Source of the DNA: Acidobacteriota bacterium
GTDB lineage: Bacteria > Acidobacteriota > G020349885
Assembly: GCA_020349885.1 (NCBI GenBank)
Contig: CP070701.1
Coordinates: 413,397-460,609 of the forward strand
Direction: 5' to 3'
Length of the DNA stretch: 47,213 nucleotides
Made by a program: the position numbers and the translations under genes. Positions 7,860 to 38,802 of this stretch are shown piece by piece (the first letter of the stretch is position 1; the number at the start of each line of letters is the position of its first letter). A model generated the notes under the pieces. It made no database searches, was not told the DNA's origin, and saw nothing but the letters and a program-made list of their open reading frames with translations.

Positions 7860-9164
7860 TTATTCCTCTTTTTTCTCTTCTTCTTTTTCTTTGGCCCTCT
7901 TGATCGCGCGAAGCAGCTTCCCGGCCAGTACTTCGTCCAGCCCCTTCAAAGTCTTGTGCTCCTTCGAGGCGTCGTCGGGCCGGTCGAGCGCGAGGTACGC
8001 CGTCCCCAGCAGGTAATGCGCCCTGGCGTAACCCGGCTTCAGCCGTGCCGCCCGCTTGCAGGCTTCGACGGCTTCCTCGGGGCGGGCCGTATTGAGGTAG
8101 CTAGCGCCCAGCTTGACGTGCGCTTCGGCGAAATCCGGGTCCAGCCGAAGCGCCTCCTTGTAGGCATTGATTGCATTCTCCGGACGGCGCAGCTGGGAGA
8201 AGACGATGCCCATGTAGTAATGCGCCCTGACGAAATCCGGCTTCAGCCGTACCGCCTCCTTGAAGGCTCTAATGGAATCCCAGGAGCTGTTGCGCACATG
8301 GACGTGACAGACGCCGCGGTTGAAATAGTTCTCGGCCTCCGGAGCCAGCTCGAACGCCTTTTCGACGTAGGGGTTCGCCTCGTCGTATCGCTTGCTTCCT
8401 ATGAGATATTCCGCGACGAACCGGTTCCCCTCCGCCGTGTCGAGGTATTCTTCCGCCTCGCCGGACCGGAGCTTGCCTTGCAGCAGCCAAGGGTCCGCGA
8501 GCGCCCGCGCCTCGCTTTTCCCCTCAAGAAGCTCGCGCACTTTCTCGACGGGGACGGCGAACGTCAGGGTTCCGCCCTCCACCGGAAGGGCGGTGGCCAC
8601 CCCGACGACGTTGCCCCGGTCGTCGACGACCGGGCCTCCGCTCGAGTCTTCCTGAATGGCGGCGGTTATATCGAGGAAACGCTCGCCCGACTCCGCCTCA
8701 TGAACGGCGCTCACCGCGCCCTCGGAAACCGGGCTTTCAAAAGAAATTCCAACGGTGAAGACGCGCGCGCCGGCCTCGAGTTTCCTCGAATCGCCCAGGG
8801 CGAGCGAGGGCGAGTCCCTGCCCCCGAGCTTGAGGACCGCCAGGTCCGCCGCCTTGTCCGCCGCCGCCACGCCCGCCACTTCGAAGCTGCCTCCGTCCGC
8901 GGCCTTGGCGGTCGCGGCGGAGGCGTTGTGGACGACGTGGTAGCTCGTCACGAGAAGGCCGTCGCCGCCCGCGAGAAAGCCCGCGCCGGTAAGGAAGGCT
9001 TTGCCTTCGGCGTCGCGGGCCTCGACTTGCATGACGGCGGAAGCGGCCGTCTCGACGGGCGCGGGCGCGTCAGCCTGCGCTCCCCGCGGCGCGGCAAGCA
9101 GCACAGCCGCCGCCGTCAGGAACGCCGCCGGCCATCGACCGCCTCGTGTGACATGGTTCGTCAT
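7860..9164 (-). CDS. Exported trypsin-like (S1C) protease with TPR repeats
   Basis: A 434-residue protein. A signal peptide occupies about residues 1-31 (basic start, AAFLTAAAVLLAA, cleavage after AQA). A trypsin-like domain follows, with candidate catalytic triad H76 (TSYHVVHN), D107 (AADLAVL) and S175 in EDSSGGPVV; the usual GNSGGP is altered to DSSGGP, yet the serine remains. There is no PDZ domain. Instead about residues 245-415 form four or five TPR units (AxxxYKEALRLDPDFAEAH-like), then a Lys/Glu-rich tail. Location is probably periplasmic; substrate recognition by TPRs is inference. The start at 9164 is chosen because it begins the signal peptide; an upstream in-frame extension lacks support. 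Confidence 0.85.
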   Translation of the reverse strand: MTNHVTRGGRWPAAFLTAAAVLLAAPRGAQADAPAPVETAASAVMQVEARDAEGKAFLTGAGFLAGGDGLLVTSYHVVHNASAATAKAADGGSFEVAGVAAADKAADLAVLKLGGRDSPSLALGDSRKLEAGARVFTVGISFESPVSEGAVSAVHEAESGERFLDITAAIQEDSSGGPVVDDRGNVVGVATALPVEGGTLTFAVPVEKVRELLEGKSEARALADPWLLQGKLRSGEAEEYLDTAEGNRFVAEYLIGSKRYDEANPYVEKAFELAPEAENYFNRGVCHVHVRNSSWDSIRAFKEAVRLKPDFVRAHYYMGIVFSQLRRPENAINAYKEALRLDPDFAEAHVKLGASYLNTARPEEAVEACKRAARLKPGYARAHYLLGTAYLALDRPDDASKEHKTLKGLDEVLAGKLLRAIKRAKEKEEEKKEE

Positions 9165-9257
9165 TTCGTTTACGCCTCGGCCCCAAGTATAGCATGTGCC
9201 GGAAATCACCCGCACCTCCGGAAGAGAACGCGGCAGGGCGGCGTTTTGTTCTGGAAC

Positions 9258-10190
9258 CTATCCCTTTACGACGGGAGCGATGGCCTTGATATGGTCGGGC
9301 GTGGACGCGCAGCACCCGCCGATGACCTGTGCGCCCATCTTCTTCCACTCGCGGGCGAATTCGGCGTATTTCTCAGGAGGGCAATCCTCCGCATCGATCG
9401 TGAAGAACTCTTCCTTGGGAGAGCTGCCGAACTTGGGGTTCTCATCGTACCCGATCTCAGCGTAGGCGCCGACGAATCCGCCGAAGGCCTTGCGAAGCAC
9501 GGGCAGGCCGGCCGAGACCGCTTCGGGAGGGCTGCACATCAGAAAAATGCCGTCCACCTTGTGTCCCTTGAGCGCCGCGACGAGGTCGGTGAGGGACTCG
9601 CCGTTAAACATCGTTCCGTCTTCTCTCAGACAGCACACCCCGAGGAACAACGGCAGGCCCGCCTTGGCGCAGGCGTCCACCGCCGTCACGCAGTCCGCTA
9701 TAGGACTCTCGTGAACGATATCCCCTCCGAAGTATTCGGCGATCAGGAAGTCCACGCCGGCCCCGGCGAGGATGCGGGACGTGTCTTCGAGCTCCTCGCG
9801 AAGGTCGCAGTCGCATTCGCTCGGGGCAAAGCCGCCCGCAACGTACGCCTCGGGGTTGAGGGCGTTCCGCACCTCGACGGCCAGCTCACCGCCCCGCCGC
9901 GTGTACTCCTCCCATCGGTCCTCCTTGCCTATCATCGCCATCATGGACTTACTCGTATAGAAGTTGTTGCTGATGATGATCTCGGCCCCGAGCTTGAGGT
10001 AATCCTCGTGGATGGCTCGAACGACGTCCGGGGCCTCGAGGTTCGCGGCGGCCGACCACACGCCGATTTGTCCGGCGTACGCGCCTTTGCTTATGGTAAC
10101 TCCGCGCCTGTGCAGCTCGGTGCCCGTTCCCCCGTCCATGAGCAGAACTTCACCGGCCTTGAGCCGGTCGAGAATGTTTCGTGAAGGCAT
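9258..10190 (-). CDS. Homocysteine S-methyltransferase family protein, copy 1
   Basis: A 310-residue protein with the pterin/homocysteine methyltransferase TIM-barrel fold: LLMDGGTGTELHRRG at the N-terminus, ISNNFYTSKSMM, then the expected zinc-ligand positions FLGVCC and GGCCASTPDHIKAI near the C-terminus. Family enzymes methylate homocysteine to methionine using S-methylmethionine, betaine or other donors; the donor here is unknown. It follows its paralogue by 2 bases on the same strand, so the pair is probably one transcript. It lacks the insertion seen in copy 2. The same frame stays open far upstream, but those residues overlap copy 2 and are not conserved. Confidence 0.88.
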   Translation of the reverse strand: MPSRNILDRLKAGEVLLMDGGTGTELHRRGVTISKGAYAGQIGVWSAAANLEAPDVVRAIHEDYLKLGAEIIISNNFYTSKSMMAMIGKEDRWEEYTRRGGELAVEVRNALNPEAYVAGGFAPSECDCDLREELEDTSRILAGAGVDFLIAEYFGGDIVHESPIADCVTAVDACAKAGLPLFLGVCCLREDGTMFNGESLTDLVAALKGHKVDGIFLMCSPPEAVSAGLPVLRKAFGGFVGAYAEIGYDENPKFGSSPKEEFFTIDAEDCPPEKYAEFAREWKKMGAQVIGGCCASTPDHIKAIAPVVKG

Positions 10191-10192
10191 GG

Positions 10193-11173
10193 CTATTTTC
10201 CCTTTACGATGGGCGCGATGGCCTTGATGTGCTCGGGCGTGGACGCGCAGCACGCGCCGATTATCTGCGCGCCTATCTTCTTCCATTCCCGGGCGTATTC
10301 GGCGTACTTTTCCGGAGGGCAGAACTTCGTGTCTATCGTGAAAAATTCTTCCTCGGGCGAGCTGCCGAACTTGGGGTTCTCCTCGTACCCGATTTCCGCG
10401 TATGCGCCGACGAATCCGCCGAAGGCCTTGCGGAGCTCGGGCAGGCCGGCCGAGATCGCGTCGGGACGGCTGCACATCAGGAAAATGCCGTCCACCGGGT
10501 GTCCCTTGAGCGCCGCGACGAGCTCGGTGAGGGACTCGCCGCGATACATCGACCCGTCCTCGTTCAGACAGCACACCCCGAGAAACACCGGCAGGTTCTC
10601 CTTCGCGAGGGCGTCCACCGCCGTCACGCAGTCCTTGATGGGAGTATCGTGTGTGGTATCCCCTCCGAAGTATTCGGCGATCAGGAAGTCCACGCCGGTC
10701 GCGGCGAGGATGCGGGCCGTGTCTTCGAGCTCCTCGCGGTGGTCGCCGTCGTATTCGGTCGGGGCGAAGCCCCCGGCCACGTACGCCTCGGGGTTGAGGG
10801 CGTTCCGCACCTCGACGGCCAGCTCCCCGCCCCGCCGCGTGTACTCCTCCCATTGGTCCTGCTTGCCTATCGTCGCCATCATGGACTTGCTCGTGTAGAA
10901 GTTGTTGCTGATGATGATGTCGGATCCGAGCTTGAGGTAATCCTCGTGGATTTGCTTGACGACGTCCGGGGCCTCGAGGTTCGCTGCGGCCGACCACACG
11001 CCGAGGCTTCCGGCGATGGCAGGCTGGATGGGCGAGCGCGCCGTGGTCCGTTGTTTGCTGACCGCGCCCTTGCTTATGGTGACTCCGCGCCTGTGCAGCT
11101 CGGTGCCCGTGGCCCCGTCCAGGAGTAGAATTTCACCGGCCTTGAGCCGGTCAAGAATGCTTCGTGACGGCAT
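10193..11173 (-). CDS. Homocysteine S-methyltransferase family protein, copy 2
   Basis: A 326-residue paralogue of the downstream gene; most positions are identical by eye, including the CC-containing zinc motifs (FLGVCCL and GACCASTPEHI). Just after TISKGA it carries about 15 extra residues, rich in basic and polar amino acids, replacing the short YAGQI of copy 1. The insertion lies in the early barrel loops and could alter substrate access. The gene is transcribed from a strong-looking promoter at 11281-11309 with a roughly 100-base structured leader. With metE at 39280 the window has three possible methionine-forming enzymes. The methyl donor cannot be told from sequence. Confidence 0.88.
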   Translation of the reverse strand: MPSRSILDRLKAGEILLLDGATGTELHRRGVTISKGAVSKQRTTARSPIQPAIAGSLGVWSAAANLEAPDVVKQIHEDYLKLGSDIIISNNFYTSKSMMATIGKQDQWEEYTRRGGELAVEVRNALNPEAYVAGGFAPTEYDGDHREELEDTARILAATGVDFLIAEYFGGDTTHDTPIKDCVTAVDALAKENLPVFLGVCCLNEDGSMYRGESLTELVAALKGHPVDGIFLMCSRPDAISAGLPELRKAFGGFVGAYAEIGYEENPKFGSSPEEEFFTIDTKFCPPEKYAEYAREWKKIGAQIIGACCASTPEHIKAIAPIVKGK

Positions 11174-11417: not shown

Positions 11418-13235
11418 TTAGAATTTTCCTTTCTCGAATTCCTCCACCGTTGTGGTGCCCTCGTGGACGAGCTCGAGGCAGCGCCGCCGAAGGGGCGTCA
11501 TGCCCTTCCCGACGGCCACGCGCGCGAGCTCCACGCCGCTTGCGCCCTGCTCGACGAACTGCGTCAGCTCGTCGTTCCACTCGAGCGCCTCGGAAACGGG
11601 GACGCGCCCCGCGTAGCCCGTGTTATGGCATTTCTCGCAGCCCTCGCCGGCGAACGTTTTAATCTTTTCCATCTCTTCCGGTGCGAATCCGGCGCGCTGG
11701 AGTCTCGCGGGAAGCACCCGGGTCGGCTTTCGGCATGCCGGGCAGATGCGACGCACGAGGCGCTGGTTCAGGATGAGCGAAAGCGAGCTCGAAATATCGC
11801 GGAGCGAAACGCCCAACCGCAGAATTTCGTCCAGCGCCTCGGCTGTGCTCGAGGTCTCCAGAACCGCCGCCACGAGCACCTTTGTCCCCGCCTTGAACGC
11901 AAGCGACGCCGTCTTGTTGTCGGGCAGGTCGGAAAGCACGATGGCCTGCGGATCGGCTTTAAGAAGCGACTGCAGCGCCTTCGCGAACTTTTCGTCCGTA
12001 ACATGCACCTGCTCGACGCCTTTGATCGGCGTGAGCGCGTGGGACTCGATAGTGGCGACCCTGCGCCCGCTGGCGCTCAGGTACTTGACCACGGAGTACG
12101 CCGTGGTGGTCCTGCCGCTCATGACGGGGCCCGTGATGAGCATCGTCCGCCGGGTGCCCGCGAGCGCCTTGCGCATGCGGCGGAGGTCGTCCGGCGCGAA
12201 GCCCAGCTCGTCGAGGTTCTTGAAGAATCTCTCCCGGTCTACGAACTTGACGCTCAAGTTCTCGCCGGAGGGCGAAGGGTAGCACCGGACGTTGACGTCG
12301 TACTCCTTGGCGCCGTGCTTGATGATGGCCCGGCCGTTTTCGGTCTCGCCGCTGCCCTCGGGCGCAAGCCCCACCATGCGGCGGAATTCCGCCGCGAGGT
12401 CTTTCCGCAGGCCCGCCGCGAGGGGCTTGTGGCGAAAAAGAATTCCGTCGATGCGGTAACTGACCTGAATGGAATCCTCCTTGGGCTCGAGGTAGAGGTT
12501 GGACGCCCTGCTCTTGACGCCGCCGAGGAGCAGGTTCTGGACGAGCTTCTTGACGTCGGCCACGGCCTCCTCCCTGGGCTTGAGCTCCTGCCGGCTGAAG
12601 CACGCTTCGAGCAGGGAGCGTATCTTTTCGGGCGGCGCCTGAAGAGGAATGATCTTGGCGTCGGTCTTCGTCTGGATGAGATCGATGAGACCCACGTCCT
12701 TCGGGTCGGCCATGGCGACCGTGAGGACGGCCTCGTCCGTAAGGCTTTCCTCGTCGAGCGGGAGGATAAGCTTTTCGTAGCAAAACGGCGGCGACAATTT
12801 TTTAAATTGCGCCGGATCGAAAGTGTAGTTGTCGAGCGAGGCCGTGGAGACGCGCTCCTGGCGCTCGACGAAATAGTCGATGTCCTTCTGCGCGACGAAG
12901 CCGAGCTCGACGAGTGCCTCGCCCAGCTTGCAGCCGCGCATCTTCTGGTATTCGAGCGCTTTCAGCAACTGGTCGGTCGTGAGGAGGTTCGAGCGGATGA
13001 GCGATTCGCCCAGCTTCCCCTTGGCCTCGGCGAGAAGGCGGAGTTCTTTTTTGAGGACATCGGTCGCGCCTTTCCAGAACTCGGCTTTGTAGTCGTCGGA
13101 GGCGCGGCAGAAGCACTGAAGGCAGAACTGGCACAGGCGCGTAGGGTTGCGCGGGTCACAGCTGCACCACACGGAGTCGGCGGCGTCGAACTCCCCAAGG
13201 CACGTCCAGCACTGCACCACGTAGGGTTCGGACAT
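11418..13235 (-). CDS. GspE/PilB-like protein with degenerate ATPase motifs and Cys-rich N-terminus
   Basis: A 605-residue protein. Residues 1-45 contain eight cysteines (9, 12, 24, 26, 35, 38, 41, 43) in CxxC-like spacing, probably binding zinc. About 72-126 is an MshEN/GspE N-terminal-type repeat (KLGESLIRSNLL, KLGEALVELGFV). The C-terminal half is a type II/IV secretion ATPase domain, but the Walker A reads GPVMSGRTTT at 369-378 (the catalytic Lys is Arg), the Walker B region reads AIVLSDL where GEIRD is expected, the Asp box is ASNLYLEP and the HTN motif is ETS. The zinc tetracysteine (C498, C501, C533, C536) is kept. It is probably a regulatory or structural homologue. ATG 13235 is favoured over a longer frame entering the promoter of the divergent lysS. 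Confidence 0.85.
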   Translation of the reverse strand: MSEPYVVQCWTCLGEFDAADSVWCSCDPRNPTRLCQFCLQCFCRASDDYKAEFWKGATDVLKKELRLLAEAKGKLGESLIRSNLLTTDQLLKALEYQKMRGCKLGEALVELGFVAQKDIDYFVERQERVSTASLDNYTFDPAQFKKLSPPFCYEKLILPLDEESLTDEAVLTVAMADPKDVGLIDLIQTKTDAKIIPLQAPPEKIRSLLEACFSRQELKPREEAVADVKKLVQNLLLGGVKSRASNLYLEPKEDSIQVSYRIDGILFRHKPLAAGLRKDLAAEFRRMVGLAPEGSGETENGRAIIKHGAKEYDVNVRCYPSPSGENLSVKFVDRERFFKNLDELGFAPDDLRRMRKALAGTRRTMLITGPVMSGRTTTAYSVVKYLSASGRRVATIESHALTPIKGVEQVHVTDEKFAKALQSLLKADPQAIVLSDLPDNKTASLAFKAGTKVLVAAVLETSSTAEALDEILRLGVSLRDISSSLSLILNQRLVRRICPACRKPTRVLPARLQRAGFAPEEMEKIKTFAGEGCEKCHNTGYAGRVPVSEALEWNDELTQFVEQGASGVELARVAVGKGMTPLRRRCLELVHEGTTTVEEFEKGKF

Positions 13236-38085: not shown

Positions 38086-38802
38086 ATGCCGGAGAAGGCC
38101 GCCCCTCCCCAAAAAAAGAAAGCCATCCTGCTCGTTGATGATTCAAAGCTCATCCTTCAGATGGAGGAGGCGATCTTGGGCCGGGAGCAATTTGACCTCT
38201 TCAGGGCGACCTCCGGCCAGCAGGCGCTGGATCTTGTCAAGCGCCACAAGCCTTTGCTGGTCCTCCTGGATTTCTTTCTCCCTGACGTAAACGGCGACGA
38301 GGTCACGAAGCGCATCCGCGAGGACCCCGAAACCACCCATGTGTCCATCATCATTGTCACGATGAAGGGCTCGGATGAGCAGAAGGAGAAGTGCTTCAAA
38401 GCGGGGTGCAACGATTTTATAACGAAACCCATCAACTCGGGGCTCCTCAAGCTCAAAGTCGACCGACTCGTCAACATCGCCCCGAGGACGCCCTACCGGA
38501 TTCTCGTGAAGATGTCGCAGGCCGGGAGCGAGCAGCGCGACTTCGTCTTCAGCTCGAGCGTCAACATCAGCGAGACGGGCATGCTTGTGGAGACGGACAA
38601 GAAGTTCGACCTCGGCACGGAGGTTGACCTTCAGTTCTACGTCACCTCCTCGCGCGAGCCCATCGCGGTGCGCGGCTTGCTGGTGCGCTACCAGAAGAAA
38701 GGCTTCCGCCGCGCGAACGCCTACGGCATCACCTTTAGCGAGCTCTCCGAAGAGAACAGGAAGAAAATCCGGGCGCTCATCGAGCAGAAGGCCCGGCCGT
38801 AA
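38086..38802 (+). CDS. Response regulator: receiver plus PilZ domain
   Basis: A 238-residue two-domain protein. The receiver domain (about 12-130) has D18-D19, phospho-acceptor D62 (LLDFFLP), T92 and K114 (FITKPIN). The PilZ domain (about 134-232) keeps both c-di-GMP-binding motifs: R134-x3-R138 (RTPYR) and N160-x-S162-x2-G165 (NISETG). It could thus combine phosphorylation and c-di-GMP signals, as in motility or exopolysaccharide control. No histidine kinase is adjacent. AAGGA is 8 bases before ATG. Confidence 0.92.
   Translation: MPEKAAPPQKKKAILLVDDSKLILQMEEAILGREQFDLFRATSGQQALDLVKRHKPLLVLLDFFLPDVNGDEVTKRIREDPETTHVSIIIVTMKGSDEQKEKCFKAGCNDFITKPINSGLLKLKVDRLVNIAPRTPYRILVKMSQAGSEQRDFVFSSSVNISETGMLVETDKKFDLGTEVDLQFYVTSSREPIAVRGLLVRYQKKGFRRANAYGITFSELSEENRKKIRALIEQKARP

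Follow-up and report, generated by a model that had tools for sequence, protein, structure and literature searches.

A conserved, catalytically degenerate PilB/GspE homologue with an N-terminal cysteine module in Acidobacteriota: a possible signalling scaffold

Traffic ATPases are usually regarded as motors. PilB (TIGR02538; PDB 5tsh and 3jc8) is arranged in the order MshEN, N2D and ATPase fold and carries a zinc tetracysteine, while GspE (TIGR02533; PDB 4ksr) has the T2SSE fold with a zinc Cys4 site. The MshEN c-di-GMP receptor domain of MshE (PF05157; PDB 5htl) and the GSPII-B domain of Thermus PilF contain two 24-residue motifs separated by 5 residues. In M. xanthus, PMC5544727 describes an ATPase-deficient Walker A variant of PilB (K327A) that signals exopolysaccharide production.

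Here we describe a PilB/GspE homologue from an Acidobacteriota bacterium, encoded in a window of 47,213 nucleotides (the whole stretch of DNA analysed) that belongs to a single 2.4-Mb contig. The protein has the fold order and the zinc tetracysteine of PilB, but it has lost the catalytic motifs, carries an extra module of eight cysteines and is encoded outside a pilus operon. With GspE it shares the T2SSE fold and the zinc Cys4 site; it differs in lacking the active site and in having no gsp genes nearby. Two 24-residue motifs, 5 residues apart, are present as in MshE and PilF, but with N for G in motif I and I and V for L in motif II, and with an apparently dead ATPase attached. Like the K327A variant, which acts in signalling, it would be a PilB that does not hydrolyse ATP; K327A was engineered into a functioning motor, whereas the loss described here arose naturally and has become fixed across a family.

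A PilB-like protein and its genomic setting

The query protein is encoded by an ORF of 605 codons plus a stop, with its ATG at position 13235. The initial annotation had placed it at 11418-13235; re-reading the frame gave the same coordinates, on the minus strand, and the start codon is backed by a homologue (L041) that begins at the same point (MSEEYLIQCW). Its features are as follows.

11418..13235 (-): coding sequence, 605 aa; module, MshEN and degenerate T2SSE (PilB/GspE-like pseudo-ATPase), from frame, Pfam and Foldseek
13098..13223 (-): eight-Cys N-terminal module, residues 5-46; presumed two-metal zinc module, common to response regulators
12945..13016 (-): c-di-GMP-type motif I, residues 74-97, KLGESLIRSNLLTTDQLLKALEYQ; 10/11 key positions
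12858..12929 (-): c-di-GMP-type motif II, residues 103-126, KLGEALVELGFVAQKDIDYFVERQ; 9/11 key positions, 5 residues past motif I
12588..12842 (-): MshEN C-terminal subdomain, residues 132-216; Pfam PF05157, 2.3e-11
11436..12563 (-): T2SSE (N2D and ATPase-fold) domain, residues 225-600, catalytically degenerate; Pfam PF00437, 1.3e-58
12105..12134 (-): degenerate P-loop TGPVMSGRTT, residues 368-377, Arg for Lys; from sequence
12027..12050 (-): degenerate Asp box IESHALTP, residues 396-403 (canonical TAEDPVEF); from sequence
11916..11942 (-): degenerate Walker B IVLSDLPDN, residues 432-440 (canonical ..GE[IV]RD); from sequence
11847..11870 (-): degenerate His box AAVLETSS, residues 456-463 (canonical STLHTND); from sequence
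11733..11744 (-): zinc tetracysteine pair 1, C498-x2-C501; kept in 35/35 members
11628..11639 (-): zinc tetracysteine pair 2, C533-x2-C536; kept in 35/35 members

Membership of the T2SSE fold is clear from PF00437 (198.9 bits against a cut-off of 24.9). The nearest solved chains are those of PilB: the AlphaFold2 model (pLDDT 81.7, pTM 0.59) matches 5tsh in Foldseek with an E-value of 1.7e-41, a TM-score of 0.91 by target length and 31% identity. The protein falls below the NCBIfam equivalog cut-offs for both PilB (TIGR02538, 295.2 against 675.65 bits) and GspE (TIGR02533, 248 against 630.25 bits). The four cysteines that form the zinc tetracysteine of the PilB/GspE clade are present (C498, C501, C533 and C536). 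The view that fold, MshEN repeat and tetracysteine had all been kept is thus confirmed by Pfam, Foldseek, the motif scan and the cysteine pairs.

Eight T2SSE matches were found in the genome, seven above the cut-off and one weak; the seven comprise two full canonical PilB/GspE types, four partial-profile matches and the query, which is the sole T2SSE match within the window. The genome's own active PilB is at C1:1687529-1688698. The genome also carries seven GGDEF matches, six PilZ domains, three MshEN domains and one PilM. No pilus or secretion gene adjoins the query among the 10 neighbouring ORFs scanned by Pfam (3.5-20.1 kb), nine of which had a match: two SufB/D, an ABC ATPase, a protease-TPR protein, a homocysteine methyltransferase, a LysS-type synthetase, an FtsX-type permease, an ABC ATPase and an Omp85. 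Together with the T2SSE scan of the window, this bears out the earlier statement that no other pilus or secretion genes are adjacent. The Suf genes lie 4-10 kb from the query gene. Around the pseudo-ATPase family as a whole, flanks differ beyond close relatives, and no shared set of neighbours suggests a partner; flanking genes are partly common to families f17, f38 and f53, and likewise to f3 and f30, a pattern that resembles synteny kept by descent, not a functional link.

Three other features of the window were recorded. Two adjacent and very similar homocysteine S-methyltransferase-like frames (9258-11173, minus strand) look like a tandem duplication; a trypsin-like peptidase fused to TPR repeats (7863-9215, minus strand) lies beside the methyltransferase genes; and a PilZ domain protein (about 38482-38787, plus strand) is encoded 25 kb from the pseudo-ATPase.

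Loss of the ATPase active site in one clade

Among 60 relatives in the phylum, the best matches to the query carry the N-terminal module as well, and the P-loop Lys is missing from them too. To avoid selecting members by their P-loop, we surveyed 396 genomes of the host phylum using only the eight-Cys module, as a profile of 50 positions. The module was found in 47 of them (36 of the 338 genomes of good quality, 28 of 210 genera). Classified by profile, the 80 module ORFs comprise 38 with module, MshEN and T2SSE (MshEN whole in 33, first half only in 5), 32 with module and receiver, 6 with module and MshEN only and 4 with the module alone. One of the six MshEN-only rows is a gene split over two frames (L115), leaving five candidates for loss of the ATPase domain; in family f26 some members stop after MshEN, which suggests that the ATPase domain is dispensable there.

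We compared the active-site positions of the query with those of active motors, taking residue roles and PilB numbering from PMC5424180. The Walker A Lys is replaced by R in TGPVMSGRTT, as the initial annotation had stated, the catalytic Glu by D, the Mg-binding Glu of the Asp box by L and the His box residue by E. Both arginine fingers, absent from that annotation's list, are replaced as well (R271 by N, R286 by K). The query therefore has none of the residues looked for in an active motor, namely Walker A Lys, Walker B Glu, Asp-box Mg Glu, arginine fingers and His box. The further claim that Asp box, Walker B and HTN motifs are all altered holds in that each has changed, but two acidic residues are retained, the Asp-box first Glu and the Asp in the 'RD' of Walker B.

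These losses are common to the family. Thirty-five members from 12 taxonomic families could be aligned over the T2SSE domain; the split gene enters with its ATPase part only, and the very degenerate L088 is aligned with some uncertainty within these 35 rows. The P-loop Lys is present in 0/35. Three further members (L150, L151 and L153) have no GK[ST] by pattern, so that Lys is absent from 38/38 readable P-loops, a count that includes the ATPase half of L115; L152 ends at a contig edge before the P-loop. The first arginine finger (R271) and the Mg-binding Glu of the Asp box are likewise found in 0/35. Of the His-box residues, T411 and H413 survive in one member each and H420 in none. The catalytic Glu is kept in 5/35, with Asp instead in 22, and the second arginine finger (R286) is R in 8/35 and K in 25/35. 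Other positions are retained: the first Glu of the Asp box is E or D in 35/35, the Walker B Asp is kept in 18/35, the zinc cysteines occupy all four places in 35/35, and the RIDG motif of N2D is conserved. Canonical paralogues of the phylum have the canonical residue at all these catalytic positions in 21/21; they were chosen by a P-loop GK[ST], so that the count for Lys, and for no other position, follows from selection. The Arg of the query P-loop occurs in 1/35, the other members having T, C, A, L, S, V, M or I at this place, and we dropped it as a key feature.

The second P-loop glycine is replaced by a bulky residue (F, H, M, Y or L) in 35/35, and the old P-loop has given way to a conserved loop, P-x-x-[NH]-G, with N or H in 32/35. 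Conservation of a new loop in this place suggests re-use, not decay. A catalytically dead motor of PilB/GspE type, conserved across the family, is thus well supported by the sequences; given the retained Asp-box Glu and Walker B Asp, some residual nucleotide binding may persist.

In a FastTree phylogeny of 56 T2SSE domains, all 35 members fall on one side of a branch with SH-like support of 1.0 and a length of 0.63. In six close pairs dN/dS over the whole gene is 0.12-0.23; the module by itself gives 0-0.11 and the T2SSE part 0.04-0.25. The gene is thus being preserved, and its module is the most tightly constrained. The pseudo-ATPase family is one clade under purifying selection. A phylogeny had been proposed as the check on whether the substitutions are conserved, and homologues with canonical motifs, revealing an isolated mutation, as the finding that would speak against a pseudo-ATPase: the substitutions are conserved in 12 families of a single clade, and the P-loop Lys occurs in 0 of the 38 readable module-bearing homologues.

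Outside the phylum, the module was looked for in plasmids and had no match there. The 40 plasmid relatives of the whole query protein that were listed, of 697 records, begin at query residue 77 or later, that is, without the module, and a single-protein search of genome contigs gave one distant match, in Nomurabacteria, to the ATPase domain only. Two genera of one family carry tandem pairs of module-bearing pseudo-ATPases (L045:4149-7787, plus strand; L049:8255-11884, minus strand), and one copy in each pair is without the second half of MshEN. Two more degenerate T2SSE proteins, L181:1344-3008 (minus strand) and L182:1715-2929 (plus strand), from genomes G090 and G214, have no Cys module; both keep the zinc Cys pairs, one has an intact-looking MshEN and the P-loop TGPMGPAVSS, and the other is without MshEN. 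Pseudo-traffic-ATPases may therefore be commoner than the module-bearing family.

The cysteine module and the c-di-GMP-type motifs

The eight cysteines that the initial annotation had noticed at the N-terminus are confirmed, at residues 9, 12, 24, 26, 35, 38, 41 and 43. An alignment of 54 module sequences shows no variation at seven of the Cys, and C, H or D at the fourth ligand position, a pattern that would be expected of zinc ligands. AlphaFold2 predicts a compact fold (pLDDT 86.4). The module profile finds a single copy in the query's own genome (2.7e-28; next best 0.137). Pfam and NCBIfam hold no convincing family for the module: matches are scattered, mostly zinc-ribbon-like and confined to 1-3 of the 54 members, with best E-values of 0.004 and 0.005, respectively, and none for the query's own module. 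Against the PDB, the best E-values are 0.079 by sequence profile and 3.9 by Foldseek, and VIA-align gave no Z of 2 or above among 31 chains; RING, FYVE, IBR and the Nup153 zinc finger, all with E-values of 3.9 or worse, were set aside as relatives. No description of the family or the module was found in the parts of the open-access (PMC) literature consulted, which is weak evidence. Three short ORFs (L100:4317-4502, L168 and L173) contain little beyond the module and are possible stand-alone module proteins.

The 32 module-receiver ORFs (L083-L101, L154-L172), of which one genome has up to four, carry an N-terminal Cys module homologous to that of the query, but have a C-terminal receiver domain instead of MshEN and T2SSE. 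The phospho-acceptor Asp of the receiver is present in 32/32 and the conserved Lys in 30/32. When loci were read with wider flanks, an ORF of the histidine kinase cluster lay near the module-receiver gene in 10/15 (confirmed by Pfam in 6/6 scanned), against 0/38 for those loci of this cluster analysis that lack a receiver domain, a comparison that is rough because locus lengths differ between the two sets. These response regulators are often near PAS histidine kinases.

The MshEN region of the query satisfies the receptor motif test at 19/22 key positions over two motifs spaced by the usual 5 residues; at position 11, F, Y and W were accepted, which is wider than the published consensus. NCBIfam NF053729 matches residues 74-126 (3.7e-14; 52.3 bits against a cut-off of 38). 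Family members score 14-20/22 in 38 of the 39 proteins scored (40 rows, less the ATPase half of the split gene, L115c, which has no MshEN), L088 failing at 9/22, and those of family f17 are weaker (14-16/22). Canonical paralogues score 15-20/22 in 19/21, with L002 and L021 failing. The first motif position is P or S in 18/40 rows, among many relatives; the query has Lys at this position, in line with an extended consensus given in PMC11731258. GGDEF proteins occur in 47/47 module-bearing genomes; co-occurrence of the module with GGDEF and pilus genes is thus found, and is not discriminating. With motifs kept in 38/39 proteins and GGDEF in every module genome, a c-di-GMP link of the family is plausible.

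A scaffold for signalling and its alternatives

We consider that the evidence stands at about an even balance for a conserved PilB/GspE pseudo-ATPase, a former motor that now serves as a signalling scaffold. The MshEN four-helix bundle would bind c-di-GMP, the T2SSE part would still oligomerise, probably as a ring, and c-di-GMP binding would alter the presentation of the N-terminal two-zinc module to a partner. Since the module is fused to phosphorylatable receivers elsewhere in the phylum, it would most simply be a shared docking or output domain; it is also the only constant element across architectures whose inputs differ (MshEN or receiver), which again points to the docking or output part. 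c-di-GMP would then drive the pseudo-ATPase, and a histidine-kinase phosphorelay the receiver protein. The downstream process would likely be a surface behaviour, type IV pili or exopolysaccharide. The query's own genome has no module-receiver protein, so such a two-input circuit cannot operate there as such; for the query we infer, from its sequence, a scaffold role and control by c-di-GMP. The initial annotation had proposed a pseudo-ATPase used as a sensor or adaptor. The pseudo-ATPase stands, with 0/38 P-loop Lys, 12 families and purifying selection, while the sensor or adaptor role would fit the occurrence of the same module on response regulators and the absence of an ATPase domain from some members.

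The main rival, which we judge rather unlikely, is a dead subunit or antagonist that enters mixed hexamers with the genome's active PilB or GspE. It would in this way modulate secretion or the extension of pili, under the control of c-di-GMP and the Cys module. In its favour, the PilB fold, the zinc site and the N2D RIDG motif are all kept, and PilM is strong (E < 1e-60) in 45/47 module genomes; PilM_2 exceeds its cut-off in 47/47, the remaining two (G214 and G247) by weak partial-profile matches only, and both of these still have a canonical T2SSE, with a PilC-type T2SSF in G247. However, pilus co-occurrence does not discriminate, T2SSE homologues being present in 58/60 relatives, and some module proteins have no T2SSE domain at all. 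Moreover, His-box T411 and the arginine fingers, which PMC5424180 places at packing-unit interfaces, are lost or changed, and no canonical T2SSE was seen in the loci read around the family, the nearest one seen lying about 12 kb away (G002). An unorthodox site that still supports ATPase or NTPase activity is very improbable: the Asp-box first Glu (E/D 35/35), the Walker B Asp (18/35) and a K or R at R286 (33/35) would leave it something to work with, but P-loop Lys, first arginine finger, Mg-binding Glu and H420 are missing from 35/35 and a bulky residue fills the place of the second P-loop glycine in all of them.

A sensor role for the eight-Cys module, in which zinc or oxidation would be perceived and the signal passed on via the remainder of the protein, is improbable in our estimation. 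Seven invariant Cys and the C/H/D ligand in 54 sequences agree with a metal site, but interchange of C, H and D would suit a structural zinc better than a redox pair, and the neighbours of the pseudo-ATPases are not consistently metal or redox genes. A last reading is that the gene is a decaying pseudogene or carries an isolated mutation. In one relative, L115 (family f17), it runs over two frames within a fragmented assembly, and one module match (G025:C247) has an internal stop; against this, frames are open in nearly all members, dN/dS is well below 1, and the same losses recur in 12 families of a single old clade. The active-site census, the tree and dN/dS refute it as a general account, and we give it a negligible chance for the query.

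Extended to the phylum, the scaffold reading becomes a proposal that we regard as possible rather than probable: a two-zinc docking domain not described before would serve Acidobacteriota as a common output, carried either on a receiver (fed by PAS histidine kinases) or on a dead PilB ring (fed by c-di-GMP), so that the two signals either compete for a single target or meet there; the traffic ATPase would act as a display platform, with its ATPase domain shed in some lineages. The idea of PilB-type signalling without ATP hydrolysis rests so far on engineered PilB mutants, and a fixed, widespread dead branch with a c-di-GMP-type site would be a natural test of it. Through the shared Cys module, the target of pseudo-ATPases and response regulators alike could be sought.
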